Shown piece by piece: positions 17,158-61,430 of a stretch of 64,000 nt of DNA. How positions within the stretch are numbered: the stretch's first letter is position 1; each line of letters opens with the position of its first letter. Made by a program: the position numbers and the translations under genes. The notes below the pieces were generated by a model that was given only the letters and a program-made list of their open reading frames with translations, did no database searches and was not told the DNA's origin. The stretch is from Morinoia aosen (taxonomy: Eukaryota > Arthropoda > Malacostraca > Amphipoda > Talitridae), in assembly GCA_030386875.1 (NCBI GenBank), contig CM059560.1, positions 24,670,683-24,734,682 of the forward strand. Direction: 5' to 3'.

Positions 17158-17335
17158 CACGTTCTGGAGAAATAAGGCGGAGCAAGATAACGCAAGACAT
17201 CAATGCCGGGATCGTCAGGAAGCAGGCATCTCCCAAACGTTCTAAGCTTCTATAAAAGACGCGACCTGCATCGTTTTGTCGCAGTTGAGTCAACACACAG
17301 CAGCGAGTCCCTGGATCTCATCTCAGCTAACGACT
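17158..17335 (+). promoter_or_regulatory. Conserved TATA promoter of bZIP gene A
   Basis: TATAAAAG lies at 17251-17258, and transcription probably starts near 17281 around TCGCAGTTGAG. Upstream is a block shared with the promoters of genes B and C: GATAACGC, then ATCAATGCCGGGATCGTCAG, GAAGCAGGCATCT, AAACGTTCTAAGCTTC and the TATA box. The A and B copies match from about 17158 through the TATA box into the 5' UTR. The C copy matches over about 100 bp. The shared words are candidate factor-binding sites. Which factors bind is unknown. Confidence 0.75.
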
Positions 17336-17536
17336 CTTAAATATTTACGGATTGCTACTAGATCGAAAAACTCCAGAATATCAGGTTATACGGAAAGTTA
17401 AGAAGTTCTTGAGTACATCTCAGTTTTGTGGAGCTTCACTAATTCAAAGCAACGATTTAGGTAAAATCCCTCCCTTTAAATATTGACACTACCTATTGGA
17501 AAAACTCGTCTTCGGTGGCTGTTACCCCACTTAATC

Positions 17537-19247
17537 ATGGAAGAATTTAAATCAGAATATGACTGGCCTTCGGACCTGGATAACATCGAAGTGACTCCTT
17601 TCGGGGACGACCCTGCTCATCCCATGGTAGGACAACCCGAGGGGGGCTATGGTGCACCCCTGCAGGGGTGGGGTGAACCCGAATCTTCTCTGTTTGGCTC
17701 TTGGGAATACGGACCTCAGCAGTCGGCTTCGTTCTCAAGGGGCAAACCGCACGTAAGTTTAACTCATCCGATTAATTATTCCTTGCGTAAGGAATATGTT
17801 ACTCGACCAAGTTTTCATAAATGGTCAATATGACTTTGTGAAATGGCTGATTTTATCAGTCGTCTGAAAAAATTGTTTTTCAACAAAATGTACCAGATAT
17901 CGTGGAAAGAGAACCCGATGTTTCCTTTGACTACTCATTATTTCATATCTGTTGCAAAAAAATTTAAAAGCCTCGTCAGCTGAGAAATTCACTAACTACT
18001 TTTATATATATACGTAATTATACAGTTACAAATTTATTTTCATCTCCTCCCATGAAACTGTTTGACAGCAGCTATCTGGCTTGACATCATCGCGCGTTGA
18101 TATACTCGGAACCACAAAATTTCAATGAATTACGAGTAACATTAAATTTCATCTCATGCAGAGTTTGGCTACGGGGCAGCAGCCATCTGGACTCGCACCA
18201 ACCCCACCAAACGTGTTTGGTGAGAGGTTCGATTCGAGTTTGGATTTGCCGTATCAGCGTGCTGTGGACAACCTCCCGATGCCTACGACCGACTCTCTCA
18301 AGGGGCAGAAAGATGAATTTCAGTCTCCTGATATTTGGGGACTTTCAGACGATCTCCAAGATCAATTAGTGACCACTGACAGCTCACAAATATATCCTCA
18401 CCCGAATATCTATCAACAAAGCTCACCCGTTTTCAACTATCTAGGAGAACCTCAACAGCCCAGGCCAGCTAAGGCTAAAGCTAAAAAGATCACGGTGCCT
18501 CGCGGTGATTCCAACCGCATTGCACCGGGAATTGGTGAAGCTGCTTCACAGTTCAAAACATCCCCTGGTTTGATGCAATCTCATTTAAGAAGCGGTAGTT
18601 TTTTTGCGGGATCATCCGAGCCGGGCCATTCAAGATTTCAAAAGAGTATTCAGAGCGATTGCATTGGGCAAACGTCTCATTCCGGAGAATTTTTGCAAAC
18701 ATCAGAGCAACTCTACTCAATGCATCCTAGCTGGTCATACCAGGAAATCCAACACATTCCTTCTGGGTACCATGAAGTGGACTCTACTGGTGAACTGCAA
18801 CCAAACGCACAGCTTGCCAGCCACCAAGGCAGTCCAGAAAATCTTTTCCCGACTAATGAGCCTACGTTTTCTACACTGGCTGGCTGCTCTGCTTCTGGAG
18901 TTGCGTATGACAATCTCCAACAAAACAACGCATCATCTTCAGGTTCGTCAGAAAGTGAATTTGGTCTCTCTGGAGCGAAGCCACAGCAGAAGCAGAGGAA
19001 ACGCAGCAGGTTGCCCAAAGCTGACTATGAGAACATGTCCCTGGAAGAGGTGCAAGCTCGGAAAAGAGAGCTTAACAAAATTTGTGCTAAGGAGTACAGG
19101 GAGCGAACTGGAATGGAGCTCATGAAGAGCAAACAGAAATACGATGCAGAACAACAACGCCAGCAACAAATGCAAAATGAAATTTCATGTCTAGATGCAA
19201 AGATTGCTGCTCTGAAAGAATCTTTCCAAAGGCTTTCTGCATCATAA
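17537..19247 (+). CDS. bZIP-like transcription factor, paralogue A
   Basis: Two coding exons, 17537-17752 and 18162-19247, joined across a 409-bp phase-0 intron (donor CAC|GTAAGT, acceptor CATGCAG|AGT), give 433 residues. The start is the first ATG of a frame (MEEFKSEYDWPSD) conserved in gene B. Exon 1 encodes an acidic, aromatic N-terminus with TPFGDDPAHPM, QPEGGYGAP and SSLFGSWEYGPQQS. The long middle is rich in Ser, Gln and Pro, as in activation regions. The C-terminal 80 residues form the bZIP: basic region ELNKICAKEYRERTG matches N-x3-A-x3-R with Tyr where Ser, Cys or Phe is usual. In register follow Met and three Leu at +32, +39, +46 and +53 from the Asn. By family knowledge it should dimerise and bind DNA in the nucleus. 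No named orthologue is recognised. Gene B is its close inverted duplicate. Confidence 0.8.
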
Positions 19248-19544
19248 GACATCTAGTCGGATTCCTATAGAGTTTAGAGTAAGAAATAATTGTAGCTATT
19301 CCTAAAAACTACAAAGGAAGGTTATCAAAGCTCGAAGAGGGAAAAAGGCTGTAAAGGATATTAAAAGTGATTTATCAGATAAACTGCTCATTAACTTCAC
19401 ATTTTACGCACAACAAATGATATGTGTGGTCTTATACGTAATTTGTTCAAATCATTCATAGAATATTTATTTACTCATATAATATATTCTCATAACTTCT
19501 AAAATATCAATGTTTTTCTTTTATATTACGATTTTTTGTGGTTT

Positions 19545-19800
19545 AGTGGTTGTCAGCTCTTACCTTCAGTGGTAAGTGTCGTTGGTTCGGTGTTTTGCAT
19601 TACCAGCCCGGCGTTTCTTTCCGTTTCCCTAAAGGGAATATATTGCCTACTCTTCACTTGACTCAGGTATATGAAACTGGTACTGGTTTGACCGGAGGTA
19701 TCCGTCATTGCGTCCTAGCATTATTCTAAACTCATTCAAAAATTCTTCATATGATATGAAATGTATCAACTTGATTACACTGAAAAAAATTCTCTCTTAT
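19545..19800 (+). repeat. tRNA-derived SINE
   Basis: The head carries a perfect pol III A-box, TGGTTTAGTGG, and about 35 bp later a B-box-like GGTTCGGTGTT. The body shares GGTATATGAAACTGGTACTG, TTGACCGGAGG and GCGTCCTAGC with the truncated copy at 4717-4920. The tail ends near GATATGAAATGTATCA. It lies in the 3' flank of bZIP gene A. A functional tRNA gene is ruled out because no cloverleaf can be folded past the anticodon region. Confidence 0.65.
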
Positions 19801-20249
19801 TTTACAAGCTTCATTATCATTCACTGATGAATTCAAGCAGTCTGGCAGTTGCAACAACCATACCGAAAACAGATTTCTTGAGTACACTATTCACTTCCAG
19901 CCGTGAGTCAACGCTCAGTAGTCTTCTGACTCTCCTGACGATCTCGGTCAACTCGGTCACCAACTTCCCAACTTGGTAACGTAGTTTGCTTGTGGTTGAA
20001 CGGCCTCGAAATTTTCTGGACCAAATGGCATCATTTACATCGAAAACAATGCAGTAAACATTTTGTTCAAGTGTAGCTGGGATACACCAGGTGCCACCTT
20101 TATGATGTGCTCCATCTATAACCAATCGAGGTTCATCTTTGCAACTATTTTTTTATGTGTAGCTGTAGTGTTACGAAAAAGTTCTTGTTTGAAAAGCTTT
20201 CTCTGAGATGCATCAGCTCATAGGAGGAAAATATGATGTCCCGAGCAAA

Positions 20250-20545
20250 AGGGTAGATAGGCCTTCCTTAGATCAAATAGAAATTATTTTTGTTTGGTTG
20301 CGGGCTATCATTTCTTGGTTAATTACTGCACTTTCTTTCAGCATGTAGATCTTTCTTGTTCAACTTTTATCTTGTTTTATTTATTTCTTACTCAACTCAC
20401 GATTCCTATGTGTAAGGGATCTTGTGAGATAATGCACCTAGTTCATAGATTTCCTGTTCGCTAAGCTCCACATTAGTTTTGTCTTCCTCCTTCCTCTCTT
20501 TGGAACACCTTTATTGTGTTTAGGAAGTGTTAAACTAACTTATCT
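20250..20545 (+). repeat. Dispersed repeat family A, copy 3
   Basis: The most diverged of three copies: GATAGGCCTTCCTTAG, a pyrimidine-rich centre with CTTGTTCAACTTTTATCTTG, GATTCCTATGTG and a closing GGAAGTGTTAAACTAAC that matches the end of copy 2. It carries an extra insertion of about 50 bp after the centre. Confidence 0.5.
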
Positions 20546-21102
20546 ATTTCAATATGGTATGCACCAGTAAGCACATTTTTTTAAATTAAGTTTTCAGTCA
20601 TGCTGCGCTTTCTTAAGCACGTCTTATTCAGATATTTTGAAATTATTTATTTTGGGTTTGTATGTTACTATCTGATCTCATATTTACTGCCTTTATCCAA
20701 TAAATTGAATAGCTCTATTCTTAAATGAAAAAATGTAGTTAGTCAATCAAAGATTTCTTTTTTATTCGGTTGAGGAATTACGTTCGTGGTGAAGCTTTAA
20801 ATGCTTAACTAGGTACTAGGTAAGCGTCCAGTGTGGCATCCCCAATGACATTCGCAGCCTTGTACAAATTATTGGCTTTTGAAGATGACTATTTACTTCT
20901 GGATTTATAAATTGATCGTCTTGTTTGAAAATAATATCTCTAGAATACCACAGTTTTACAACCTTGGCTGCTTTATAGTGTCCTGTGTGCATTTTGATGA
21001 AGGTTATTACATTACTTTTAATTATCTATGATATTATTTTGGTATTCCAAGTGAGCCTACTGGTACAGGGTACAGGGAGCGATGACCACCGACATACCAC
21101 TG

Positions 21103-21257
21103 ACATATCGTACACACTGTGATAATCAGCAATCAAAGGTTACCTGGGTGTGCGTAATTCTAGTTGACAGCTTGAAGATGTTCGCTATACTCTTCAGTGG
21201 AACAAGTTGGTCGTGAAGATTTTTAGGAGCTCATTTCTATACAGACTTGTTGGTAGA
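21103..21257 (+). repeat. 155-bp direct repeat, left copy
   Basis: From ACATATCG to TTGTTGGTAGA, this segment recurs at 23567-23721 with only about three substitutions. The left copy ends exactly where LINE-coding DNA begins. Confidence 0.9.
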
Positions 21258-23220
21258 CTTTTATAACCTGAAATACATGGATCATAATCGTGAACACATT
21301 TTTTTTCTTTACGCCTACCAACTCTTCCGATGTAATTGCGTGAATAAACAACCTGAGAAATAAATTGAGTGGTTTACAAACGTACTCGACTAAAGTACTT
21401 AAAGTTATTGCTGATATTGTAGCCACGCTCTTATTCAATATTATTAACTAGAATCTCTTCTTAGGCACTTTCGTGAACTCCCTCGATGTTGCTAGAGTAA
21501 CCCCTATTTTTAAAAGTGGTGAAAAAACCTGTGTAAACAATGATAGACCTATTTCTGTTTACCAATTATTAGCAAACTATTCAAGAAAATTGCGTATACA
21601 AATGTATTCTTATTTGAACAAAAATCATTTCTCCATGATAAACAATTTGGTTTTCGCTCTAAAAATCAACAACGCAGGGTATACTAAATCATTTACAATA
21701 CCTTTATTCTAATATAGATGAAACGAAAGCCTGTCTTCTCTGTATTTCATGACTTTCGAAAGGCATTCGATTGTGTGGACCATAACATATTACTCTCGAA
21801 ACTACACCGTTATGGCATTCGATGAGTTGCCCATGATTGGTTCAGATCATACCTAACAAATCGGAAGCAATACGTTGTCCTTGAAGATGCAATATCAGAC
21901 CCACAGACAATTAGCCATGGAGTTCCACTTGGATCTGTCCTTGGGCTTCCTATTTTGATTTTTATCAATGATAAAATTAAATCCACATCTTTCTTAAAAT
22001 TCATAATTTTTGCAGATGACAGCACGTTTTCTGCAGTCCTTCCGAACCAAAATCCCGCTCTGATTGCGGAGAGTATAAATAATGAATTCCATAAGGTTTC
22101 ATAGTGGCTTAAAGCTAATAAAATAAGCCTTGATATCGATGAAACAAAATATTACATTCTCATACAAGAAAAGTATATCTCTTCCACACATTAATATTGA
22201 CGAAGGTGAAATCGAAGAAACCAACTCATGTAAGTTCCTGGGCATCATAATAGATAAATATCTGACCTTCAAAGAACACTTCGCTCATATTAGTACCAAG
22301 TTATCAAAATCCATCGGAATCCTAAATAAAGTTAAAAATTTCCTGCCTGAAACAGCTTTGCAAATGCTTTTCCGAACGCTCATTTCACCATACTTGCAAT
22401 ACGGAATTGAAGCATGGTAAGAAACTGATAAAAATAAAATCAATATACTTTTTACTCTGCAAAAAAGAGCCATCAGAGCTGTAAAGAACATAGAATATAA
22501 TGCTCACGCAAATGATTCATTCAAAAATCTACAAATACTTAAACTTTTGGATCTCTACAAAATCTCCATGTGTTATTCCATTTACAAAACATTAACCAAT
22601 GGTGGCGACAATAACTTAAAACAATTATTAACTACACAAACTGGTCATCACGACCATTTAACCCGAAATAGAAGTAAATTCATGCTTCCCTATTATTCAA
22701 CGGCCCGTTCGCAACACAATATCCTCTTCGTTGGAACTAAAACTTGGAACCTGCAGAGATCCGTGAAAGTAATTCTTATAAGGTATTCAAAAGAAATCTT
22801 GAGTCTCATTTCCTATCAGAATACTAATCGTTTAAAATCACCTAGTCAAATTTTGTCTCCTACATGACTGGTCCTGATAATGTAATTTGCCATTGTTAAT
22901 ATCGCTGATCTTCAGTCTGTTCTTAAATTGTTTATAGAATATGCTGTTAACATCTAGTCCATATAAACTATTTTGTAAAATGAAGCATCCAATACCGAGC
23001 TAACCATCTCAGTGATCAGCCTAATGAGTAACTAGGTTAAGTGAATTAGGTTAAACATTATTGTACACCCTAGAATAACGTTGATGGTAGGATGCCCTAG
23101 AAGTCGCTGGACTTGTTCGGGCCCTCAGATAGCTACACTCAAATTTGACCATTGTAATAGACTTAAGAAATATTTTACCTCTGTATCACTTGTAGTAAAT
23201 AAATTGTTTAAATTGTTTAA
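21258..23220 (+). mobile_element. 5'-truncated LINE, second copy
   Basis: The element begins within the reverse-transcriptase domain. Read across stops it shows FFTPTNSSDVIA, VLKVIADIVATLLFNIIN, ARVTPIFKSGEKTC, the catalytic region FRKAFDCVDHNI, HGVPLGSVLG, and FADD at about 22009-22020. It then continues through NSCKFLGIIIDKYLTFKEH to the same C-terminus as the copy at 1-445. In-frame stops at VS*WLK, GIR*VAHDWF and EAW*ETD, and one deletion near TKTWN, show it is dead. The 3' UTR and the AAATTGTTT-type tail match copy 1. An intact copy would have encoded an endonuclease and reverse transcriptase for target-primed integration. Confidence 0.9.
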
Positions 23221-23566
23221 GTAAGTTATAAATGATATGAGAAACTAGTCTCATCCCTCAAGCTTGGAAGAGCGCACTGCTCTGAGTTGTTCGAATTGTT
23301 TCCTTTATAATGTGCGTAGAGTGCTCGCTGAATATATAATTAGGATTTCACACATTGTTGAAACAAAATTACTTTTAAAGTGAGTAAAATCTAACTGTAC
23401 ACATAGCAGGATCTATTTTTATCCCATAACATGTAATCTGTGCAAATCACATTCATGTTTTGAATGCAGTGTGGGTTGACAGGAGGGACGAGGCCCAAGT
23501 TTTGAACAATTAACTGATCAGTCAGAAGTTGTGGCTCAAGTCATGAGTTCGTACTCTCACTAAAAT
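23221..23566. other. 346-bp spacer between LINE tail and repeat
   Basis: Unique DNA lying between the 3' tail of the LINE and the right 155-bp repeat. It is not found next to the left repeat, so it could be a 3' transduced segment or a separate insertion. Confidence 0.5.
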
Positions 23567-23721
23567 ACATATCGTACACACTGTGATAATCAGCAATCAA
23601 AGGTTACCTGGGTGTGCGTAATTCTAGTTGACAGCTTGAAGATGTTCGCTAGACTCTTCAGCGGAACAAGTCGGTCGTGAAGATTTTTAGGAGCTCATTT
23701 CTATACAGACTTGTTGGTAGA
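23567..23721 (+). repeat. 155-bp direct repeat, right copy
   Basis: It matches 21103-21257 with the changes GCTAGAC for GCTATAC, CAGCGG for CAGTGG and AAGTCGG for AAGTTGG. The left and right copies may be a long target-site duplication around the LINE. Confidence 0.9.
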
Positions 23722-25246
23722 ATTAAATAAAATCATCATAACGATTGGTTTTGAAGGCGTAAGTCGTTTGCATCATAAACTGTCCTAGAGCACACTCATC
23801 AATATTACCTCGATCGACCAAATACTTGAAAGATGAACGAGGAGTTCAATTACAGCTACAACAGAGTTGGGCGTGAGTATCTAGGCGTATTAAAGGAATC
23901 GTTTACTATGTACTGTTATGTTGAAGATGTGTTCGTGGAATCTGTGAAACTCTTTGACGACAGAAATAGTAAACTTCTATCCGTTAATAGCATTGTGAAA
24001 TTTTTATTTCACGAGGTATATAGTCAGGCGTAACGTTCTCGTTCGACAATCTCAATAGACTGTAGTTAATGTTTTTGCTTTAAAATTCTCGACTCTCGAG
24101 AAATATGTTATGAATTGAAATGAGGTGCGAAAAATTATTCCTAAGTTCATCATAAAGAAACGATTCTTGGTGTCTCTTAACATTGTTTCAGAATTACTCT
24201 TCAGTGAGTAAATATTTTGAACAACGCCTTGAATGAATAGAAATTTGTAATTTCAGTCAGTCTGGTTTAAAGCTTGCAAAAGCAAAATGTACTGATAATG
24301 AACAGGCCAAGATGTCAGAAAAACATAATCAACGCAACAAAACACTTGACGGGTTCAGGAAAACGCCTCGGGAGACATGAACAAAGCGAAATTGAACTCT
24401 ACGTTCATCTTTGAACTATTCGAGCAGCCGATATGGTCCTGATGAGTGTGCTCATGAATATCAACTGTCACATGCGCTAAGTCTTTAAAGGAGGGCGTGA
24501 TAACGCCTTCATACGAGTCTACTAGAAAGTCTGAGTAGGAATGAGCTCCGAAAATAGTTTCCCGACTGACTTTATCTGCAGAAAATTCTGTTAAGCTTCC
24601 TCTGATGGTTGACTAGAAGTGCACACGCTTGGTCGGTAACGATTCATGGTAAGCACCATGTGGACAATGGGCATTCTGATGAGAGTACCAAGGCATAACT
24701 TCTATTCCTGGTCACTTCAAGAAGCCGGTATTAAATTTTTTTCGTAGTGTTTACAGTGTTTCGAAGCGTAGATACAATATCCTAAGCTCATTGTGCCGTA
24801 AAAGCCAATGAAATTATTCGTAAGCAGTACGATGTCCAACGGTCTTACGTATTTGTCACAAGTTGATGCTCACGTTTATTGCTAAGCTTTTTACGTTTTT
24901 AACGTTTTTTGAAAGAACATAATATTTTATCGAAGTAAATTATAATTTTTTTTTTATCGAGGAGGGGAAATTGTTTTGTTAATTCTGGTGAAATTGTCGG
25001 GTACAATTTACGTTTGGTTATATGAACGATTGTACGTACTACTTGCTACAAGAATTATTTTAGATTTTAAGTACAAACTTGGTGGAAAATTTTTATTCTC
25101 AGTATTATACTTTGCTCAATGGAATTTTGAGAAATTCTGGAACTTACCATTGACCTGAGACAACAACAGTTATGACATTCTACAAGCAAAGAAGCATTTA
25201 CAGCACAAAAAAGTTCATTTTCTACGACACTCTCTCGTGAAATTTT
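23722..25246. other. Intergenic, one unrecognised small ORF
   Basis: An ATG-started frame of 66 codons at 23833-24033 (MNEEFNYSYNRVG...) has a reasonable start context but no recognisable domain. A GTGAGT within it could be a donor. Nothing else is visible. Confidence 0.3.
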
Positions 25247-25250
25247 TTAA

Positions 25251-25383
25251 CACGTTGCTTGCTATGCGGCCCATCAGTGAACCCAGTTGATGATTGGTAT
25301 TCATAAAATTGCAAACAACTTTTGACTTAGTTTAAATTTGAGTTGAAAATTGAACTTCAGTTTAACCGATCGCGGTCAACGTG
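25251..25383. mobile_element. Short TTAA-type MITE
   Basis: A TTAA at 25247-25250 precedes CACGTTG. The right end reads CGCGGTCAACGTG, followed by TCAA, a mutated TTAA. The ends form an imperfect inverted repeat. The 3' half (TTTGAGTTG..GAACTTCAGTTTAACCG) matches the MITE at 46734-46952. TTAA duplications point to a piggyBac-type source. Confidence 0.6.
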
Positions 25384-25387
25384 TCAA

Positions 25388-28290
25388 AGGAGTTGAGCGA
25401 GTCGGGGAGTTTACCTCGGAGTAGGCGAAAGTTGGAATTTTCACCACAGGCTGCACCGAAACCGCTTTGCGAGAGTAATATAGAATAAAGAGTTTGAGAG
25501 CATCACAAAAGATTTTGTGACTATGTATCATGGCAGGAATTATAAAAATTCTCAATAGTTTAAGTAGGAATTGGTTTAATCGACATCGATTTCGACGGCC
25601 GCCTCATCATAAGCTTTGTCATATTTTGGTGCTTGTTTAAACCTTGTAGAATTTCCCCGGCAAGGGGAGTTGAATTTCCGGGCATTTAGTAGTAAAGGGG
25701 AGTGTCAAAAAGCAAAAAGATTTGTTAAATATGAATCAAGAGTTAACTAGCATTTTGTAGCACTGAAATTTTTTTAAAGCATTACGATTTATGATGCAAT
25801 TTTGTGGACTAACAAGCATTTAGGAGTAATATAGGGTGATAAAAAGCATTGCATTTTTTATATAATAATGATATTCAAACATGGTAAAAAAAACGAAATT
25901 TTCCTCCTGAAAACACAGGGCCAACCGTAAGATATAGAGGCGTTCTACGACGTTTTCGAATTGTTTTAGTTGAAATGAGATTGAGCATTTTAGCATTAGA
26001 AACAATAGTAATAAAATCTCAACAACTACATTGAAGAATTAGACCACAGCCGGAAATCATTTCCTTAAAATTCTGTGCCAAACCCATTCCACCAATTTAG
26101 GTAATTAACGAATTGAATCTGAATAAAAAATAAAATTCCTCGCTATATTCCATTGTAGAATTATCCTGCGTCAAAATCATCTGCTGCATGGTGGAGGTGA
26201 AAATAAAACTTCACCTTCACCACGGCAGTCTCTGAGTCTAACTTGAATCTTATCGCAAATTTATCAGAAAAAATGGAAATTTAAAAACATGGCCGTGCTT
26301 CAAAATAGTTTTACGAAATCATTTGTAAAATAGCTTTACGAAACTAAGAAACGGTCATATCTCACCTTACAAAATTAATTCGGTCCGGAAGGGGTTTCGT
26401 TAGGTGACTTATGGTAAGTAAAGGCGCATTTTACATGTAAAAGGCCTGATTCGTTCCAAGGCCCCAATACTAACCCTAAGCCTTTTGAAAACCATTAAGG
26501 TATACCAAGTTTACATGAGCTATGTGTTAAGAGTGTAAGAAAATTATTTATTCAACGATTAAAATGAACAAGACATGCAAATCATTCACAGTTGAGGCTG
26601 AGCAACTATGCCCAAGAGACGTAAGGGCGAGAGAGGATGCGAAGTGAAGGTCGTAGTTGGTGAGGCAGGAGGAGGCAAACGATTTACATTTCGGAGGGTT
26701 CGGGCGGCTGCGAAACCGAGCGCGCAGTATTTGAATTTTTGAGATTTGGCTTTTCGTAACTTGAATTTTTCATCGTATTCAGGAAAGAAAATTTTACGCA
26801 TAGGCGGTTCCTAATTTGGATTATTCGTTAGTTGGGTCTTTTGCCAGGTGAGGTATGACTGTATTATAGCTGAAACTTGTCCATGTCTCACTCTTGAATA
26901 GAATTACTTGAATGTACACACGAGAAGAGCATTCTATTAACGATTCGAATGTCATTTAATTATTTCCTGCTGTGCGAATAATTTTGTCTTCACATCTTTG
27001 GTATCATTTCTTTATTGTATTCATAAATATTTATACTTAATTAGTCAAGCAGTGAAAGCCAAAATGCGATCAAATTCATGTTTTATTCTTGCAGTGTCAC
27101 ACTTATAACAATTTTTTCGTCCCAATATGGCAAGAAAATCTTTTTAATATTTATACAGAGCATTTCTTGCATATTTTTTCTTCCGACTGCGCGAATAATT
27201 TTGTTTTCGCATCTTTTGCATTATTTCTTTATAAGACCCCTGTCAAAAATGCTCTTGATATTCCATTTTTTACATTGGATAATAACGAAGCAGCTCGTAA
27301 ATTTCAACTGGCAGTTTTGTTTGATCTAATAACTCTTTGTTCTAACCGGAACAAGGTAGTTAAAGACATGACTATCTCCCCTTGTAAGACGGTAAATATA
27401 ATTTAGTATGTTTCTCGCTCAATTGTCTGTCTATTAATTAAAAACCTTTTGCTGCATCTTTTTTTCCGTTCTGATAATATATTTCTCACATTCCTAAAAA
27501 AAAAATTGATTTTCCAACATCCTGTCTCTGTATTTTCTCATATGCATTGGGTGCATTAAGTTGACAAATAGAATCAGTAGATGCAGGATCACGCGACGAT
27601 GATCTTCAAAATGATTTCTAATTTTTTTAAACAAAAAGTATTTTGCACCTGATGCATTGAGTTGAAAATATCGAAACTGAAACCAGAGAGACATTTTACG
27701 GCACTTTATTCAGAAGCACAAAACGCCGTACAATTACCCCACAAATGATATTAAAAAATTTCAAACGTAATACCTCATAAATATGATATATCGTGCAGGT
27801 GACGCTTTATATGTCATCAAAAGAAAATAAAGACACTGTATTACAACAGGGTTCTCAAAAAAAACATATATACTGAACATGACCAGTCTTATGCACCTTC
27901 AAACGCAAGGAAACTTAATTCCGAAGTTCCGGAAAGGACGAAATGCTTTAGTGAACAAGTCAGCCTCGGCGTCGGTGGATTTGTGAAAAGAAGTTCATGG
28001 TCTGAGATAAATTCTCCACATGTCTTCTATTACAATGGATGATAAATCTGTGAGGCTGTCCATGTTCGTCCATTTCTAGTATTTAAACCCGTGAAACACT
28101 GAGTTGTCGTATTAAAAATAAATGCCAATAAGTATATTTTGTATTATGAGCATAGGTAATGAATCGATATATGAAAAGGAATTATGATGAATATCTAATA
28201 ATACCACAGTTATGAAACGCTAAGAATTAAAATTCCTGGGTTATAAGTAATTGATATGATTAATAGTTTTTTAGCCTTTTCAAGTGTTCA
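25388..28290. other. Intergenic, no gene recognised
   Basis: About 2.9 kb. A local duplication puts TGCGAATAATTTTGTCTTC (near 26974) and TGCGCGAATAATTTTGTTTTC (near 27187) about 210 bp apart, each followed by ATTTCTTTAT. Short frames at 27078-27406 overlap in two frames and fall on this repeat, so they are not convincing genes. Confidence 0.35.
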
Positions 28291-28381
28291 TTTAACATAA
28301 CACGCTTTGAGACCTTCCATGCACATGATGAACGGGCGGGTAATATTATTTCTTATTTTATAGGAATTCGACTTGAATATC

Positions 28382-30138
28382 TCAAGATGCAGAAAGCCTT
28401 TGGAAAGATTCGTCCAACGCAGTAATCTTTGCTTCCAGCCATGCTATTTCACTCTGCAATTCTTGGTGGCGTTGTTGTTCTGCATCGTATTTCTGTTTGC
28501 TTTTCCTCAGCTCCGTTCTAGTTCGCTCCCTGTACTCCTGAGCAGCAATTTTGTTAAGCTCTCTTTTCCGAGCTTTCATCTCTTCCAGGGACATGTTCTT
28601 ATAGTCAGCTTTGGGCAACCTGCTGCGCTTCTTCTGCTTCTGCTTAGGCTTTGCTCCAGAGAGACCAAATTCACCTTCTGACGCACCTGAAGAAGACGAG
28701 TTGTTTCTCTGGAGATTGTCATACGCAACTCCAGAAGCAGTGCAGCCAGCCAGTGAAGAGAACGTAGGCTCATTAGTCGGGAAAAGATTTTCAGGACTGC
28801 CTTGATGGCTGGCAAGCTGCGCGTTTGGATGCAGTCCACCTGCAGAATCCCCTTCAACGTACCTAGGAGGAATACGAGTATGTTCGATTTCCTGGTATGA
28901 GCAGCTAGGATGCATAGAGTAGAGTTGCTCTGATGTTTGCAAAAATTCAGTTTTAGCCAAAAATTCTCTACAATGTGACGTTTGCCCAATGCAATCGCTC
29001 TGACTATTCATCTGAAATCTTGAACGGCCCGGCTCGGATGATCCCGCAAAAGAGCTACCGCTTCCTAAATGAGATTGCATCAAACCAGGGGATGTTTCGT
29101 ACAGTGAAGCAGCTTCACCAGTTCCCGGTGCAATGCGGTTGGGAAAACCGTGAGGCACCGTGATCTTCTTTTTAGGTTTAGCCTTAGCTGGCCTGGGCTG
29201 TAGTGGTTCTCCTAGATAGTTGGAAATGGGTGAGGTTTGTTGATAGGTACTTGTGTGTGAGAGCATGCGTGAGCTGTCTGTTCTCACTAACTGATCTCGG
29301 TGCTCGTCTGAAAGTCCCCAAATATCAGGAGACTGAAATTCATCTTCCTGTCCCTTGAGAGAGGGGAAGTCAGGCGTAATCATCGGGAGGTTGTCTCCAG
29401 TACGCAGATACGGCGAATCCAAACTCGCATCAAACCTCTCACCAAACACGTTTGGTGGGGTTGGTGCGAGTTGAGATGGCTGCTGCCCCGTAGCCAAACT
29501 CTGCATGAGATGAAATTAAAGAATATTCGTTTAATTTGAATTGAATTTTCTCAGCAAATATTTGCTTGCAATTGTCAGTGTCAAGCCAGATAGCTGTTGT
29601 CATACAATTTCATGGAAGTAGAACAAAATTAATTAGTTCCTATATAATTGCGTTTATTTACAAATAGTTGTTAAATTTTTCAGTTGAAAGGGCTAACTAT
29701 TTGTTCGTAAGTTTTATTGTAAATGATATGAATAATAAATAATCAAACATAACTTCAGGTTTTCTGCCCACAATATATCATACATTTTGTAAAAAAGCAA
29801 TTTTTTTAGACGACTGATGAAATCAACCTTTTCACTAAGTCAAGATGATAATTTTTTCTTGTCATATTTCATCTGGAAGGAAAAGCTTTCAGTGCACAAT
29901 GAATCAGAAAAGCTAAACTTACGTGTGGTTTGCTTAGTGACAGCGAAGCCGACTGTTGAGGTTCGTATTCCCAAGAGCCAAAGAGAGAAGGTTCGTGTTC
30001 ACCCCGTGCCTGCAGGGGTGCACCATAGCTCCCCTCGGGTTGTCCTATCATGGGATGAGCAGGGTCGTCTCCGAAAGGTGTCAATACGATGTCATTAAGG
30101 TCCGAAGTCAAGTCATATTCCGATTTAAATTTTTCCAT
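28382..30138 (-). CDS. bZIP-like transcription factor, paralogue B
   Basis: Coding exons are 30138-29923 and 29500-28382 on the minus strand, separated by a 422-bp phase-0 intron (donor CAC|GTAAGT, acceptor CATGCAG|AGT). They give 444 residues. Exon 1 is exactly as long as in gene A (72 codons) and begins MEKFKSEYD, with TPFGDDPAHPMIGQPEG and SLFGSWEYEPQQS. Exon 2 begins SLATGQQPS as in A, has a Ser/Gln/Pro-rich middle with KAKPKKKITVPHG, and ends in the zipper. The basic region is ELNKIAAQEYRERTR, with Asn, Ala-Ala and Arg in the family positions. Leu falls at +32, +39, +46 and +53, so this copy has the fullest zipper of the three. The frame is intact and the gene lies convergent to A about 9 kb away. 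UTR and flank similarity indicates recent duplication. Confidence 0.8.
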
Positions 30139-30350
30139 GATGAAAAGGAGTAACAGCAGCCGAAGACGAGTTTTTCCAATTGGTGTTGTAAATATTTAAA
30201 CGGTGGAATTTTCCCTGAATCGTTGCTTTGAATCAGTGAAGCGCCACAAAAATGAGATGTACTCAAGAACTTCTTAACTTTCCGTATATCCCGATATTCT
30301 GTTGTTTTTCGATTTAGTAGCAATCCGTAAAATTTTTAAAGTCTTTAGCT

Positions 30351-30520
30351 GAGAGGAGATCCAGAGACTTGCTACTGTGTGTTGACTCAACTGCGACAAA
30401 GCGATGCAGGTTGCGTCTTTTATAGAAGCTGAGAACGTTTTAGGGATGCCTGCTTCCTGACGATCCCGGCATTGATGTCTTGCGTTATCTTGCTCCGCTT
30501 TATATCTCTAGAATGTATAC
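30351..30520 (-). promoter_or_regulatory. Conserved TATA promoter of bZIP gene B
   Basis: TATAAAAG (minus strand) occupies 30424-30417. The start of transcription is probably near 30394. The order GATAACGC, ATCAATGCCGGGATCGTCAG, GAAGCAGGCATC, AAACGTTCTCAGCTTC, TATA is the same as at gene A, with very few differences. The 5' UTR downstream is also close to that of gene A. Confidence 0.75.
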
Positions 30521-30524
30521 CTCG

Positions 30525-33360
30525 TGCATTTCAGTTGGAAAGCATCGTGTAACTTTCTAATTATCACTGAGATCCAAGCACGAAACTTGGTATCAAATGT
30601 AAGTGTTGATGTCAAAGGGTTTGTAAAGGCTATTTCCTGTTCGAGGTATAAAGAAGTGAAAGGACCATTTGATTCGTGTAGCATATGTTCAGTAGTTTTC
30701 AAAAGTGGCTTGAATTCTGCTGCTCGCGTGAGTTATATCACCATAAATTTAAATTTTCAGTCTGTTAATTCAAAGCAGTCGCCAAGCAACAATGTATTTA
30801 AGTTAATTATTCTCCAAATTCGTTTCTTTAGTGTATCATCCGTTTTATAACCTTTCGCTTCGTACTCCAATTCCAGGTTAAATTTAAAATTGCTGCGCCG
30901 TTACTGTCCACAATATTTTTTTTCCAATGGACCACATCTCCTCATCAGTTATTTATCAGGGTGTCATCAATCCAAATTTTATTAAGGATCTTGTCTCTGT
31001 ATCACTTGCTCTGACTGTCCTATTTCAGATATTTTGTGCTCTGTTGAGTTATTGAAGCCATACCAAAGAATTAGAATCCGCTACTCAATTCTAACATCGG
31101 TGTGTATTCTCAATAACATTTTTGTGCGTATTTAGATACGGGGTTTAAAAGACGAAACTTGTGCGCTCCACTTTCTTTGGGAAGGGTGGAAATATCAAGA
31201 GTTTGAAAAGAAAAGCTCAAGTGTTGGCTTTGATTCTTCGTTGATGGCTTAAATAAAAAGCAAATGGCGGCAAATAGGCATTCCTTTCATGTGTGCAACT
31301 TCAGAATGTTGGAAGGGCGTAATAGAATGTCGAGTGAGGTGCTGTCAATGTATAAGACTACCCGTAGCAATAATGTCTTTAGTAAAAATAAGCGCGTTTG
31401 GCCCAGAGGCAATCCTCTTCACATAATTTCCCAAGACCCCAATGGTAAACAACTTCGAGTTATTCTCGTTATAGGTAAAAGTGACGACAATGGTAAAATA
31501 TACCGCAAACTATATGCTAGAATCAGTGTAAATAAAATAATATTTTTACCGATTATACAGAAAGAAAGTACGATATTTTGTTTGGGCAATTTTGAAACTT
31601 TTCAATGAAAAAGAGTACCAATATATTATAAAGAATCAACAGACGCGAGTGAGAAAAAACTGACTGTCCAGCACTGTATCACTTGACGTTGACGGAAATG
31701 GTGAAATTACACATCGACACAGACCTAGAAACACCTTATACAAAGTTGATGTAATAATTAATGCATAGATTGACGACACAGTGTAGTGGGGGAAGCATTG
31801 CCAATGAATGTATCCCCAGTTGTGTTTCAGAATTTTGGGATGAAGGACGGTTTTTTGTTTCATCATTGGTATTATATGTACCAATTTCATTATTGGTATG
31901 TTCGATATCCCGATTCAAGAAAGAAACCTTCGAGCACCGGTGCCGGATACGTCTGGATAGAGTGCTCTTGCTGAAACGAACATAGGACGTAGGTTGGGAA
32001 GCCTTTCTCCTCTGAATCGTAGGTATAGTTTAATTTGGATTAGAGACTTTGACTCTCAGTTGAAATCATAGCCAAACGAGCTGAGATGTCAACTTTTTTC
32101 AGAGCCATGCTAATTCGTTGCTGTCAATCGAAGTAACAACAAATAATGAACTTTGCAAATGGACACCGTGGGAACACCACAAACGTGAGTTTATTTGGGC
32201 AAAGTATAAGCTGACTGAAAAATAGTGAATTCGTTTTAAAATTGCGCAGAAAAATACACAAAACCGAATCTCAACGGATCGAAGCTGGGCCACCCATTCT
32301 CCTCAACAACGCTCGCCCACACCCCCGCCCACGTTGTGATTCAAAAGCTGCTTTGAAATGCAGTTGGGAAGTGTTACCTCATAAGGTCTATAGCCCTGAT
32401 ATGAGTTCGTGAGATGTTCCCTTCTTTCGACGATTTCATTATAACTAGGCCCTTTTTACTATGCTGAGTGAGAGCTAATAGACGAAAATTGAGAGTTAAT
32501 ACAACTTTTTATATTAACTCATTTTATCAATTTCATTTCATCAAGAGTTCTCAAAATTGTACGACCCATATTACTCAAATGTGATATCACTCTTTAGGAG
32601 ACATTGCAGCGATTCTTCTTCATGAAAAATAGATGATGCGTTTGTGAGCTTGCTGGTCTGGCATCTGGCATCCTAGAATTATCCCATACTGTAGTTCCCC
32701 TGAGGAATAATCTTATTTCCTAGTTGTGGCATGAGATTTCTCTTAATTTGACAACAAAGATGAGTAATATTTGGCGGTATATGACTTGAGAACGTTATTT
32801 TGAATAATTTTTTTACATTCACTCAAGCAGAAAGAATTTTTAGATTCAAAATAGCATTTGCTTTATCTAGAAGCTTGCAGAGTCAAAAACATAAACAACT
32901 GAGGTGTTACGTATATCATTTACTTTCAGTAATTAATTTAAGCTAAAATTGGGATGTATAGTGAATTAATCAGAACAACATCGTCATATACAGGAGACGG
33001 AATTCGTTTAAATATGCTGTTGTAAATATTACCTATAACCTGACGTCACTAGGTTGTTGACGAAAAGTGATCTCATGTTATAGACATTGTGCTGCTCCAG
33101 GTGAGTTGATAAAAACGTGAGCAGCGCTCAGAAGTTCGAACTATTATGCCGTTTTTTCTGACTTTCGAGAAAATTATCATCAATGAAACCTAAAGCTCAA
33201 TGAAGTCGATACTCCAGTGGTAAGAAAGAAACATTTTGTTTGTGCAGGCCAAGCATTCTACAATTTTCACATATTTTTTCGCTGAGAGTAGGATTCTGAA
33301 AATTTAATCCGATGATTCAGCCTCTGGTGAACTATTAACTCAACGAATCAAATCATTGCG
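30525..33360. other. Intergenic, one unrecognised ORF
   Basis: An ATG-started plus-strand frame of 114 codons lies at 31264-31608 (MAANRHSFHV...). I see no domain, signal peptide or membrane segment in it, and its reality is uncertain. The rest shows no repeats or genes that I can name. Confidence 0.3.
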
Positions 33361-33764
33361 GACGATCTCTCCACTGGAAGAAGAGGCTGTACACTACACG
33401 AACACAGCCAGCGCAGCTCTGTGCTGCCACCAGTATCTCTCCACCGGAGATGAGACTGTGCACGAACACAGCCAGCGCAGCTCTGTGCTGCCACCAATAT
33501 CTCTCCACCGGAGGTGAGGCTGTACACGAACACAGCCAGCGCAGCTCTGTGCTGCCGCCAGTATCTCTCCACCGGAGATGAGACTGTGCACGAACACAGC
33601 CAGCGCAGCTCTGTGCTGCCGCCAGTATCTCTCCACCGGAGATGAGACTGTACACGAACACAGCCAAGTGTAACTCTGTGCTGCCGCCAGTATCTCTCCA
33701 CCGGAGGTGAGGCTGTACACGGACACAGCCAAGTGCAGTTCTGTGCTGCCGCCAGTATTATACA
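33361..33764. repeat. 64-bp tandem minisatellite, about six copies
   Basis: The word AACACAG recurs at 33401, 33465, 33529, 33593 and 33657, with GGACACAG at 33721: a strict 64-bp spacing. The unit contains CTCTGTGCTGCC and TATCTCTCCACCGGAG and is much richer in G+C than its surroundings. The period is not a multiple of three, and the unit lacks stops in all three minus frames, so overlapping open frames of 104-142 codons arise without any gene. Confidence 0.95.
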
Positions 33765-35499
33765 TGAGTCTTTCATTGATGTTCCAACCTAGAAATGGCT
33801 CAGGTATGTGAGCGCACGGCAATTAAAAAATCACTGACTGCCTATGCATTATTTGGTGACAATGATGTTTACTTCGCACATGAGCTTCTATGGTGTTGAA
33901 AGGAATTCAGTACACCTGTCCGCGTCTGACTTGTGCTTTTAATTTCCTATTTAGCATTCCGAAAGGTTAGAATACAAACTTTTGTACATTACACACACAC
34001 ACACCGGGGTTATAACTTTGCATCAGTACAACATGCGTGAAAAAGTCTCTTATTACAACCTCAACGCTTGACCCTTGTACTTGTGTTCCTGGGGACCTGG
34101 TGCACTTAGAGTGTGGGTTGAAATTTGACTGAGAATCATTCCTCGCATTACGATTGTTCAGCGCTATATTTTAGCATTCTTGTGTCACGAAATGCTAAAT
34201 TTACTTGACGTTCGTTAAAAGTTCTATGCGTACTATATTGGGTGTGTTGTAAAATGAATTCGTCCGTCTCATGCTGCTTGATGAAGGCGAGGTAAATAAA
34301 ATTTACATCTAAAAACAGTTATATCGTTTAATTTCTTATTATACACATCGTTAACAAAGTCTAATAAACACTTATTTATTACGTAACAAGGCTCTTGATG
34401 TCAATTGGTTCGCACGTTGATAGAAGTACAGCAGGAATTGCAGCTGAACTTTGACTGAATTAATTTCATTTTCATTAATCGAAAATTAAATATCGCATAT
34501 TCGTCTAGTTATCCTGCGTCGTTTTAGGTTTTGATAAAGATTTTATTGAATTTTTTTCTATTAAATCAAAGTATAGCAAATTTTCTGGGTTATATTTCAT
34601 GAACTTGGGGCTTGCGCAAAATTGAAATGCATAAAAACTCTCCTCATCTCATTTCCTTGTCTATTAACTTTCTGGAATTATTCAAGAGGTGGCAAATATA
34701 ACTCGGTGAATGATAAGGCAAAGTTTATTTTATATGCTGTAGGTACAGAAAGTATTGAGTTACTAGACAAACGTGGTAGATGCGATGTCGTCTTTTGAAC
34801 ACAACCTAAACTTCACATCACAAAACATTGAGTGGGTCACCTCAGCGAAAGCTTTTGAGTATATATTCCAATACACAGTTCAACCGCAAGTAACGAAATA
34901 TCGGTTTAAAACTGTAAGATACCAATAAATACCAAACGTGCGATTGCAAGAACATCGAAATATTGATTTTCATCATACTGTGCTGAGTAGAGCTACACAT
35001 TCTTTCGAATGCGCAAAATTTAGCGCATTTTCCGCAACAATCAAACTTCATTTCTAAGTTGTTGGAAGGCGTTGGGAACAAGCCAATTTCGACGTGGTCA
35101 GATTATTAATCAAAAGCTGACGGCTTGAATAAGCATCTACAAAAGTCTCCTTTTATCATGGACGATGCATCTTATCTGGGTAACTCAATGAATTCATTAG
35201 TTTCAGATAATTTAACTGTTGAAATCAAAATCAGTCTCCTTATAATAAGATGCTAAAGGATTACATTATGATGCTATGAGCTTATGCTAATAAATAGACG
35301 CTCAATAAATAATAAGAACAAATTGGTTGTAAAACTTACGTCAACAAATAATAACACATGAAATATTTTGTTCGTAACGTATAACAACTTGATTTTAATA
35401 TTATTTGTTTTTCTTCGACTTCGAATGATGGTAATCATCTTCACATCTTTTTCAGTAATGTGTAAAATCACTTTGTCTACTAAATTATTCTGGCATTTT
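33765..35499. other. Intergenic, nothing recognised
   Basis: A+T-rich DNA with a short (CA)n run near 33992-34004. No gene or element is recognised. The 3' end of gene C transcripts would fall at its right side. Confidence 0.35.
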
Positions 35500-37172
35500 T
35501 TATGAAGCAGAGAGCCTGAGGAATGATTCTTCCAGAGCAGCTATCTGTGCTTCCAGGCATTCTATTTCACTCTGCATCCGGTGCTTCCGTTGTGTTTCTA
35601 TCTCGTATTTCCTTTTACTTTCCATCAGCTCCATTTTAATCCGTTGCCTGTATTCTTGGGCACAAATATTGTTAAGATATTTTCGTCTTGCTTCCATATC
35701 TTCTTGAGACATGTTCTCGTACGCCTCTTTTGTCAGTCTATCTCGATTCTTCTGTGGTCGTTTGGGTGTCCTTCTATGGAAGAGGACCTCACTGTCCGAT
35801 GTATCTGGTGAAGCGATGCTCCGCTGAGAGCTGGACCCGCGTCCAGACTCAAAGAAATTTTTACCAGGAGAAAGCATGGATTCGCAAGCAGGTAGGCTAT
35901 TTTCACACAAGTCTTCCTGATTTCCATATTGGAACCCCTCCTGCAGTCCAATTGTACTACTCAGTTCGTTTGCTTGCAAAGAAGAGGAAACAAAGTTCAA
36001 ACTATCGCAGCCATTGTGATCTGTAAAAACTGATTGAGGGTTACCTGATATCTTCGAAAATTGAGGTTGAACCCAAAATTGGTCTGAGTGAGAATGCAGG
36101 TTGGTAAATTCATCAACGAAGTTTTGTTGTTCCCTAAATATGATTTGGTCGTCACCTCTTGGCAGAGGAGTCTGTTTAAAGAATTCTCGTTTCAGAGATT
36201 TGTTTTCATTAGCCTCATTGGGTTCTCTTGATGAGAGAAATGCTGTCAAGCTTCGTTGGGAGTAGGACTCTGCAGCGGTCTCCTCTAATATCGTGTTCGG
36301 AGACTGTGACTTCTGAAGCTCTTCGTAACTTGAGTCAGTCGACTGCCAATGGAAGCTGTCTGAGTGCGATCTCCACCCCATGTTTGCGAAATTACTCAGT
36401 GGAGGTAAATTAGACGCCTCTGTCACCGGCATCGTGAAGTTGCCTCCAGGATGAAAATCGGAGGAGCTGCTGTAGTTGGCGCCATGCCACTCGCTGGACA
36501 AATTTGATGGAGTTTGTTCGAGCTGAAATGGCGGAAGCGCTTGATCCAAGCTCTGCAAGAATAAAAATGGTCTTCATTAATTTAGCATTCTATTGAGTGC
36601 TATACGGAAACCGCTTGAATCCTTATGAAAGAAAATATTCTGGTAAATTTTATTTCAATATTTTAAAAAATGCCTATGAATTAAATTTTTTATACCCCCT
36701 GAAAAGAAGATGAGATATTTCGACCCGGTTATTTCGTACATGTTTGAACTTTGCTAGTGAATGCATAATTGATCATTCCCAGAGAGTTTTCTGGCATTAA
36801 TCATTCTTTCACTTATATCTTGAATAGCCTTAGAAAAAACACGTAGAATACCAATGTGAGGATTTCTTTATCTTTCTATCAAATAAAATAAATAAAATCA
36901 CATCAAATTCATAAGTTGTGAAGTGCAGCTATGCTATGGGGTCGATATAGTTCAGAACTTACTTGGAGGAAGCCTCTTGGGGACGAATGCTGAGGTTCGT
37001 AATCCCAAGAGCCGAACAGGGAAGTTTCGGGTTCACCTCGCACCAGCCGAGTTGCACCACAGCTACCTTCGGGTTGTCTGATGATGTGCAGAACAGGATC
37101 GTCATCTAGGGGAGTCACTTCGCAGGTGTCCAGGTCAGAAGGCCAATAATCGCAAGAGGTAACTTGATCCAT
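35500..37172 (-). CDS. bZIP-like transcription factor, paralogue C
   Basis: Coding exons are 37172-36963 and 36552-35500 on the minus strand, with a 410-bp phase-0 intron (donor CAA|GTAAGT, acceptor TTGCAG|AGC). They give 420 residues. The start ATG opens MDQVTSCDYWPSDLD. The N-terminal motifs of A and B persist as VTPLDDDP, QPEGSCGA and TSLFGSWDYEPQHS. Exon 2 starts SLDQALPPFQ and diverges strongly in the Ser-rich middle. The C-terminus is again a bZIP: YENMSQEDMEARRKYL, basic region NNICAQEYRQRIKM, then Met and three Leu at +32, +39, +46 and +53, ending LRLSAS. It is the oldest of the three paralogues, same strand as B. The first two zipper positions (+18 and +25) are not Leu, as in A and B. 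Confidence 0.8.
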
Positions 37173-37379
37173 GTTAGATCAGGAGAAGAAATAAGCAAAT
37201 TCCGTGCTGGGAAATGTGATGAAAAATTCCTAATAGTTATGTTGAATTACCAAAACGTCACACATATAGCAGACGTTAAAAATAGTTGAACGTCTCAAGC
37301 TCGTGTTCTATCCGATTTCGAAGTGATTATAATTGAGTGACAAAATGACTGCGGTGATCTTGGGACCTGTTCCAAAGTT

Positions 37380-37495
37380 AGGAACCAACTGCGACTGAGC
37401 GAAGTAGGTCGAGTCTTTTATAGAAGCTTAGAACGTTTTAGAGATGCATGCTTCCTGACAATCCCGGTATTGATGACCAGCGTTATCTCGCTTAG
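37380..37495 (-). promoter_or_regulatory. Conserved TATA promoter of bZIP gene C
   Basis: TATAAAAG (minus strand) is at 37422-37415. Compared with gene A over about 100 bp (GATAACGC through the TATA box to TCGCAGTTG), I count about 14 mismatches and no gaps. GAAGCA.GCATCT and AAACGTTCTAAGCTTCTATA are almost unchanged. This exceeds the similarity seen in most of the coding sequence. Confidence 0.75.
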
Positions 37496-58973: not shown

Positions 58974-61430
58974 CTATTGGCGCCGAAGTGCGATAACTAA
59001 CCAGCGTGTATTTCTTTGCTCAATGTTCTTTCTTGTTCATATCTAGGTACATTTTATTTGTTCATACTGAAATCTAATTATTGCTGACATGTGCATATTT
59101 GTTTTCTGTGTGTATTGCCGATTTACTTAACTTAATTCTTTATCTTTCCAGACACCTCGCTATTCCTCAATATTTTGAAACTATTTCTTTATATAAAACT
59201 GTGAGAAATAAAGCTGAGTGATCACGCTATATGCTAGTATCATTTTATTGAAGCGCTTGGTAAATGGAAGTAAGTCTATTCCCGAATAACTACGTAAGCC
59301 ACGATAGAGAGCCTAGAGCGAAATTGCAGATTGCTCGTATATTAAACTTTGTATCCGATTTAATCCTATAGCTAACTCAACATAAGCAAGATTAATTAAG
59401 TTGTTGAGGGAATCTAGACATTTTTTATGAATAAAACTTGAAAAACTACTTGCTCACAGGCCAACAGTGATGAACGACGAGCACAACTCAATTTTGTTTC
59501 ATCGCTCAAGTGCTAAAACAATTAATGTTAAAATTGATTCATTATTTGGATTGTTCAACGACATATGCCATGCATGATGCTTGTGCTGATAAGATATTAT
59601 CTCACGTTAAAACGAAAAATAGATAAAAAACTAGTTGCTGGGTAAGCAGCACGCGTTCAGTAGTGTGAGCAATTTGAAAATGTTTCGTCATTTGTAACCA
59701 TTACATTGAAGTTCATGATGATGATGAAGATCATGACATGATTATAAGTGTGTACTTGTTTTTCAATGGTACTTATGTCAACAAAGAGGTATTTTCTTTG
59801 AATTTGAACAGAATATTTAATTTAATTTAATTTAATATAATTCTAGGGACGGTGCAGTGAAAAAATCAATATCGGGAAAAAATGTACTCAACTTCGTACA
59901 TAATTTTTCTGTAACATTTTTTCAGAAAATACGTGAGAAAAATGGCGACAAAGTTTAGTAAGCAGTATTTAAATATTACCCTCTTCAACATAACGGAGTT
60001 AGAAGAAACATCCTTCTTTATTGACGGCTTTGTTATTTAGATCACGCTATAAAATACGTTCTTCAGTGCTTGCCTTAGGGGATTGAGTAAAGTGCATGCT
60101 CAATAAGTAGCAGGGTCTTCCCTGAATCCTTTTCTGTCCGTCTTCCATAATAACCAGAGAAGCTGCGACGCCTCTACGAATACACATCAGTTGCAGGAGC
60201 TTGACTTGAACTTGGGTATTTTTGTCTGAAGTCTCACCCTTTATTCTCGCTCCGTATAGACAAAATTAGGAAATTGATTAATTTTAGATTTAGTTTACAG
60301 CTATTAAACACGCTGTCATGAATTGTGTTCTCAAATACAACTGATTAAAAAAATTTAATTTCCTGTAATCATTTACAATAAGGTTGAAGAGACTCAACAT
60401 TTTGTACACAAAGCCTGATAATCTGTGTTCGCCTTTTCAATATTTGATTTCTTATTTCCATATGGTGTCGTCCATACTTAGATGTCATCATACTTGATTC
60501 GTCCTAAGTTTTACCTTTTTTCGAGCAGATAAAATTTTTCCGGCACTACCGCCTTCAGAAGTGGCTGTGTGTGTGGAGGGCAGGCGTGCGCGCGCGCAAA
60601 GTGAGCGTGGGGCGCATGCGCGTGATGACGTCACTGCTGATCACCGCCTCCGAGCCCAGAGACAGCCTACATTGGGTTGCCCACCTTGCGCACCAACTAT
60701 CCTCAAAAGCTCTCATTACCGTAAGTCGGCTGAAATACGGAAATTAAATTTTAAATTAAATTGGGTCCCAGAAAGTCGAGCCCGCAAAACTCATTATGGA
60801 TGCAGTTATACAAACTATGTAGTTGCTTTAAATGTTAATTAGAAACTGGATTTGTCGCATTTATTAAAACTGTCTGGAATGAGCAAAATGCTCAAACGAT
60901 GAACAAAAACATGAATAGAGAAGCTAAGGGGTGCAGATTGAACATTTTATAGTACTGATTTGAACGATTATCCCATGAAATTTTGTGAAATTTATACTTT
61001 GGAAAAAGATGTAACATGCATTTAAGAGAAGCAGGGATCAATGAATTCGTTTCGAAAGAATGTTTTTGCTTCTGTACCTGATAAAAGAAACCACAGTTGA
61101 TGACTGGGATATGATGAGTAAACTGGTATAATTAGTGCTAGTTTGTGAAAAATGTTTACCAGGAAATATTCCTTAAAATTGATACGCGAGAAAATACTTT
61201 CTTATGAGACTTGCTTGCGGAAACGGATATGTGAAGGCGGATGCTACTCAATATTTTAATATTTTGTGATTTCAGAATTCGTCCAAATAAGTGGTAAATT
61301 TATGCTAGCACCGCGCGAGCTCGAGCTTTCTAATTACTTCGAAGATGGGGCAGGAGATTAAATATTGATTAGAAGCGTGTGTAAAAGGAATGATTTTTGA
61401 AAGTAAAACGGGTGAATTAAAATAATTCTG
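58974..61430. other. Intergenic or intronic, CpG-rich patch inside
   Basis: Mostly A+T-rich, with a TTTAA/TTTAAT run near 59816-59838. A CpG-rich patch at 60555-60720 is treated separately. No gene recognised. Confidence 0.35.
60555..60720 (+). promoter_or_regulatory. CpG-rich patch with CRE site
   Basis: GTGCGCGCGCGCAAAG-type DNA and a consensus CRE palindrome, TGACGTCA (60626-60633), sit in G+C-rich sequence, followed at about 60720 by a GTAAGT. This could be a promoter with a first exon. The 93-codon frame over it (60561-60842) shows no protein family. Confidence 0.3.

Follow-up and report, generated by a model that had tools for sequence, protein, structure and literature searches.

A family of bZIP-like genes multiplied in six clusters on one chromosome of the amphipod Morinoia aosen, with a chimeric member

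A 64,000-nt stretch of the genome of the talitrid amphipod Morinoia aosen (contig CM059560.1, C5:24670683-24734682 in a 1.99-Gb assembly of 29 pieces; hereafter the window, numbered from its first base) carries three genes, A, B and C, whose predicted proteins end in a basic leucine zipper (bZIP)-like region. An arthropod host is borne out by 115 matches to Chitin_bind_4, a family typical of arthropods, whereas a search for the insect family PBP_GOBP, run without a positive control, gave no match and so lends no support to an insect. Our analysis supports the membership of A, B and C in a transcription-factor-like family that multiplied recently and locally and whose protein sequence is under selection. 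The family counts 23 copies in six clusters, all on C5, and gene B of the window is a chimera of two gene types, B1 and B2, that stand side by side in the other clusters. The exons of the three genes are:

17537..17752, plus strand: gene A exon 1, 72 codons, with TPFGDDP, QPEG and SLFGSWEYGPQ
18162..19247, plus strand: gene A exon 2, bZIP-like C-terminus, stop codon within
29923..30138, minus strand: gene B exon 1, 72 codons, B1-type
28382..29500, minus strand: gene B exon 2, B1-type down to 28798 and B2-type from 28769 to the stop, holding the bZIP-like domain
36963..37172, minus strand: gene C exon 1, 70 codons
35500..36552, minus strand: gene C exon 2, bZIP-like C-terminus, stop codon within

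Predicted proteins of 433 (A), 444 (B) and 420 (C) amino acids are encoded around single introns of 409, 422 and 410 bp, respectively, all of them phase 0 and GT-AG, with GTAAGT as donor and an acceptor ending in GCAG, and the frames are open in all three genes. Exon 1 contains TPFGDDP in A and B and TPLDDDP in C, along with QPEG and SLFGSW[ED]Y.PQ in each. The original prediction, made from the letters of the window alone, had listed shared exon-1 lengths (72, 72 and 70 codons), phase-0 introns of 409-422 bp, N-terminal signatures and open frames, and all of these are confirmed in A, B and C. Since the two-exon open structure is retained in 18 of the 23 genomic copies, this gene structure is more than chance.

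A genome search with gene B returned 24 matches for exon 2 and 22 for exon 1, which combine into the 23 copies in clusters near 3.39, 24.33, 24.69 (the window), 24.90, 25.24 and 25.57 Mb of C5. Five of the six clusters present the gene order A (plus), B2 (minus), B1 (minus), C (minus). The three genes first described as a cluster are thus real, while the cluster itself turns out to be a shortened copy of a mostly four-gene cluster that occurs six times. Two further stretches of the window help to trace the extent of the repeated unit:

49567..49986, plus strand: presumed exon of a neighbouring gene, one copy per cluster, 3′ border set by eye
61000..61700, unstranded: genome probe from the far flank, recurring beside other clusters

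The query 49567-50004 gave six genome matches, all on C5 and one per cluster, at 86-100% identity. The far-flank probe, about positions 382-664 of which are also a dispersed repeat, recurs at 99% identity beside three other C5 clusters and in two pieces at 87-88% beside a fourth; the 41 matches listed include none at 3.4 Mb. Because the neighbouring exon and the far flank recur at other clusters, markers over ~44 kb of the window recur there in the same order, a statement that concerns the markers compared. Upstream of A, window 12000-12700 is a young high-copy repeat, present in at least 39 other places that match almost the full probe at 97-98% identity; with the best 40 of 1452 candidates scored, it is uninformative on the extent of the duplication on that side.

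The window holds one B gene and the other five clusters hold two. Of 367 diagnostic sites upstream of position 28789, 365 are B1-type, and of 361 downstream of it, 359 are B2-type, a call made with seven reference copies and with the same outcome using five. In gene B, therefore, the promoter and N-terminus are of B1 type and the bZIP part is of B2 type, and the switch between them is confined to a short interval:

28769..28798, unstranded: crossover interval of the chimeric B, from the last B1-type to the first B2-type diagnostic site, within exon 2

Most simply, unequal crossing-over between adjacent B2 and B1 genes would have deleted ~7 kb and fused B, and such an event probably removed one gene in the window. 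Since the single B is fused from B1 and B2, the three-gene cluster is most likely a four-gene cluster minus one. Near-identical copies, a missing gene, a fusion gene and broken copies beside intact ones are all features that the family has in common with tandem gene arrays of the unequal-crossover kind. Unlike the usual arrays of this kind, its members are transcription-factor-like, and the fusion has given a bZIP-type domain a different promoter and N-terminus. A tandem repeat with a 64-bp unit in 5.7 copies lies between B and C (window 33395-33758), and in the 24.9-Mb cluster a shorter stretch related to it lies between B2 and B1, near 24910788-24911105.

It is quite possible, if somewhat short of probable, that part of the six-fold count reflects uncollapsed haplotypes scaffolded in series, with perhaps three or four real clusters. 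Two other loci in the assembly are doubled in a comparable way, namely a bZIP locus on C6 (66.36 and 69.21 Mb) and a C/EBP-looking locus on C4 (98.65 and 100.53 Mb), both in the range of 98.5-98.7% DNA identity, and six cluster-gene pairs agree at 99.1-99.7%. However, the nearest partners vary by gene, which two haplotypes alone would not yield: A of the window goes with the 24.33-Mb cluster, C of the window with 25.24 Mb, B1 at 24.91 Mb with 25.59 Mb and B2 at 24.90 Mb with 25.25 Mb. Moreover, none of the three modelled copies at 3.4 Mb reaches 95.5% identity to another copy, and when the 21 genes compared are collapsed at 98.5%, 13 distinct ones remain. Haplotigs are insufficient as an explanation for all copies, the partner patterns being mosaic. 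With a third pair added, these doubled bZIP loci, each pair on one chromosome, are L005/L006 (98.7%), L057/L058 (98.5%) and, in inverted arrangement, L007/L008 (about 93-94%); their doubling may be haplotypic, produced in assembly, or a genuine segmental duplication.

As to the nature of the encoded proteins, a Pfam scan of exon 2 of B gave bZIP_2 as top model (E-value 0.0021, 18.5 bits for a cut-off of 22.3) and that of C gave the same model at 14.2 bits (cut-off 22.3), with no match at E ≤ 1 for the exons of A. When C-terminal pieces from ten family members, including one taken from a broken copy, were scanned, bZIP_2 appeared at E ≤ 1 in nine (best 0.0017); DUF1192 matched five of the ten (best 0.012) and Vps5 three (best 0.0084), and no non-bZIP family, at a best E-value of 0.0084, matches as many as bZIP_2. 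An N-x7-R basic region is present in A, B and C. Set against the N-x7-R signature and canonical heptad register of bZIPs, the heptad d positions of all three read S-E-[LM]-L-L-L, so that four of six fit. In a profile search of solved structures C/EBP beta was the first bZIP (E-value 0.48, 63 residues ungapped, key Asn on Asn), and single-sequence searches returned C/EBP beta for A (0.44) and FosB (0.70) and ATF-4 (5.4) for B. An AlphaFold2 model of the B C-terminus (B only, as a monomer, from a three-sequence alignment) consists of one continuous helix over residues 55-121, with a block predicted local distance difference test score (pLDDT) of 92-98 over residues 51-120. We read the C-terminus as a putative divergent bZIP-like domain in which the first half of the zipper is weak. 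Of the C-terminal bZIP originally proposed, the bZIP-like helix with N-x7-R holds and a match at the Pfam bZIP_2 cut-off does not.

The proteins A, B and C resemble the bZIPs of C/EBP, ATF4 and Fos/Jun in the N-x7-R helix and the partial in-register leucine heptad, and the matching solved chains are C/EBP beta, FosB, JunD and ATF-4, all weak (E-values 0.44-5.4). Unlike those bZIPs, the family stays under the Pfam cut-off, lacks Leu in the first two heptads and has its own N-terminal exon and its own promoter. Assignment to the ATF4, C/EBP or Fos subfamily was not possible, with no significant subfamily match in the solved-structure searches, and NCBIfam gave weak matches to unrelated families only, far under cut-off. 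A viral origin was also considered and rejected: a scan of viral contigs yielded 370 pattern-matching stretches, and tblastn found no relative among them. A literature search returned no such family among the entries listed, which is not proof of absence from print.

The genes also have a 103-bp promoter block in common, located as follows:

17186..17288, plus strand: promoter block of gene A, with the TATA box CTATAAAAG at 17250-17258
30387..30489, minus strand: promoter block of gene B
37385..37487, minus strand: promoter block of gene C, repeat pair I6

Identity within the block is 97/103 for A-B and 88/103 for both A-C and B-C. The A-C value is retained although synonymous divergence (dS) between A and C is 1.6, and the 450 bp upstream reach just 57-61% identity in three A/B-C pairs. 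The element CTATAAAAGAC is found 251-290 bp ahead of the ATG in 20 of the 21 modelled copies. A genome search with a 24-base core returned 20 places with no mismatch and two more with one mismatch, all of them family genes and together precisely the 22 family copies with exon 1 retained; the other eight matches have three mismatches each, and a backward control gives nine matches. Conservation of the block suggests a shared regulation of the family genes.

A diverged paralog of the family forms an array of four on C13 (39.50-39.63 Mb, ~42-45 kb spacing), one of them broken. The one array member read, L029 (C13:39624600-39634500), has two exons and encodes 503 amino acids; it is like the A/B/C family in its two exons, phase-0 intron and bZIP-like C-terminus. 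For its C-terminal 95 amino acids none of 1000 shuffles reaches the score against each of five family members. Its exon 1, of 130 codons, has no clear likeness to that of the family (19-203 of 1000 shuffles reach the score), Ser stands in place of the family's conserved Arg, and N-x7-R is absent. A promoter likeness (CGTTCTAAG and a TATA box), attractive by eye, fell within shuffles (27-151 of 300).

Ages and selection were estimated by the Nei-Gojobori method with broken copies excluded. Between A and B, dS is 0.19, and it is 1.4-1.7 between A/B and C. The original prediction had taken A and B for the newest pair, which is contradicted by two closer pairs: the window's A gene differs from that of the 24.33-Mb cluster by a dS of only 0.014, and its C gene from that of the 25.24-Mb cluster by 0.015. 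The ratio of nonsynonymous to synonymous rates (dN/dS, the Ka/Ks check first proposed) is under 1 in 54 of the 57 pairs, the exceptions being three B2 pairs with values above 1. Recent local multiplication, another part of that proposal, agrees with the 23 copies in six C5 clusters. Six pairs within A have dN/dS values of 0.34-0.57 and ten within C of 0.34-0.69; of the 36 pairs that compare B genes, 32 lie at 0.40-0.77 and a single B1 pair at 0.19. Four pairs of A/B with C yield an overall dN/dS of 0.33-0.40 and one of 0.15-0.22 for the bZIP part alone; among pairs of one type that part ranges over 0.11-0.71 and is not always the most constrained. Fisher p values run from 5e-15 to 0.027 across the 11 pairs tested. 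In the same four A/B-C pairs dS is 0.56-0.82 for exon 1 and higher, at 1.2-1.6, for the bZIP part, so the 5′ end may be constrained as DNA or homogenised by conversion. Coding indels are multiples of three in 10 of 10 cases in seven compared pairs, partly by construction, as intact copies were chosen beforehand; the figure for introns is 9 of 31. Judged from these substitution patterns, the protein is under purifying selection, which is strongest in the bZIP part when the A/B types are compared with C.

The explanation that we favour, and hold to be fairly probable on the sequence evidence, is that of divergent bZIP-like regulators with a common promoter type, borne on clusters that exchange sequence and with the protein under purifying selection. 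The short N-terminal exon with its acidic and aromatic stretches would be an activation region and, after a long middle, the C-terminal basic helix and leucine zipper would dimerise and bind DNA. Transcription would proceed from the family-specific TATA promoter, present as sequence and presumed active. The array would grow and shrink by duplication and crossing-over, which in the window would have swapped a bZIP part.

Several results weigh against this explanation. Whole-exon Pfam scans of A, B and C all remain under the curated cut-off, and Ser and Glu stand in place of Leu at the d positions of the first two heptads. The top solved structure of the profile search is the unrelated SLC30A9 (E-value 0.22), that of query B is thimet oligopeptidase (0.68, just ahead of FosB), and none of the three solved-structure searches gave a bZIP under 0.4. 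Foldseek with the single B helix returned one match only (E-value 9.9), which is unusable. The A gene at 25.24 Mb, the one modelled copy with a change in CTATAAAAGAC, has an altered TATA box, and the three recent B2 pairs with dN/dS above 1 have few changes (1-3 synonymous, 5-13 nonsynonymous). Finally, 5 of the 23 copies are broken, the remaining 18 being intact:

3.39 Mb: A, exon 2 not found
3.40 Mb: B1, stop
24.36 Mb: C, stop in exon 1
25.26 Mb: B1, exon 1 damaged
25.57 Mb: A, exon 1 not found and frame broken

The sub-threshold bZIP scores would also fit a C-terminus that is a coiled-coil interaction helix with DNA binding lost, the proteins acting as dimerising partners or dominant-negative inhibitors and not as activators. 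Some members weakly match coiled-coil families, which points the same way, as do acidic residues within the basic region, Cys in A and C where the bZIP signature usually has Ala, and the Ser in place of the conserved Arg in the C13 paralog. Yet A, B and C retain N-x7-R, the B model is a single continuous helix, and bZIP_2 is the top Pfam model for B and is matched by most members, all of which makes a loss of DNA binding unlikely. That the genes are decaying bystanders of a segmental duplication driven by the neighbouring gene or by repeats might be argued from the 5 of 23 broken copies, from the flanks and another exon that recur with the genes, and from recent pairs whose dN/dS is mostly only moderately below 1 and in three cases above it, but a dN/dS of 0.15-0.22 in the A/B-C bZIP part, a promoter block kept at 88/103 over the A/B-C distance and 18 of 23 intact copies render it distinctly improbable.

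Beside the cluster, the neighbouring gene occupies window 49567-54872 on the plus strand, and its first exon is the one matched once per cluster. Two of its downstream exons, joined at a putative splice (the end of 53662-54069 with 54729-54872), bear a weak resemblance to the N-terminus of an axonemal-type dynein heavy chain, which is the best PDB match of the joined peptide (E-value 0.11); its exons scanned singly gave no Pfam match. None of the 37 AAA_6 motor-domain matches is on C5, which leaves a whole dynein at this locus unsupported. Elsewhere in the window, a tandem repeat at 57770-58971 has a 35-bp unit in 34.4 copies with 93% matches. Direct repeats at 21103-21266 and 23567-23730 (164 bp, 96% identical) bracket a broken reverse-transcriptase stretch like that of long interspersed nuclear elements, a reading made by eye and with no Pfam match. 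On the minus strand, 3691-4104 matches Pfam DUF659 below cut-off (E-value 2.6e-6), a hAT-transposase-like family.

Transcription factors are often dosage-sensitive and are seldom found in recombining multi-copy arrays. We would propose, as a doubtful extension of the favoured explanation, a so far undescribed family of bZIP-like regulators in arthropods that has a core promoter class to itself and is kept in arrays whose crossovers swap DNA-binding domains between promoters and N-termini. Perhaps it is a fast-evolving germline or sex-related amplicon, an idea raised because the neighbouring gene weakly resembles an axonemal dynein heavy chain N-terminus. A three-gene reading from a single window can miss such a chromosome-wide pattern. 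Part of the family's interest lies in a promoter block that is slower to change than the coding sequence, and a family multiplying, losing and fusing its members under purifying selection would be a natural system for regulator diversification by domain swapping.

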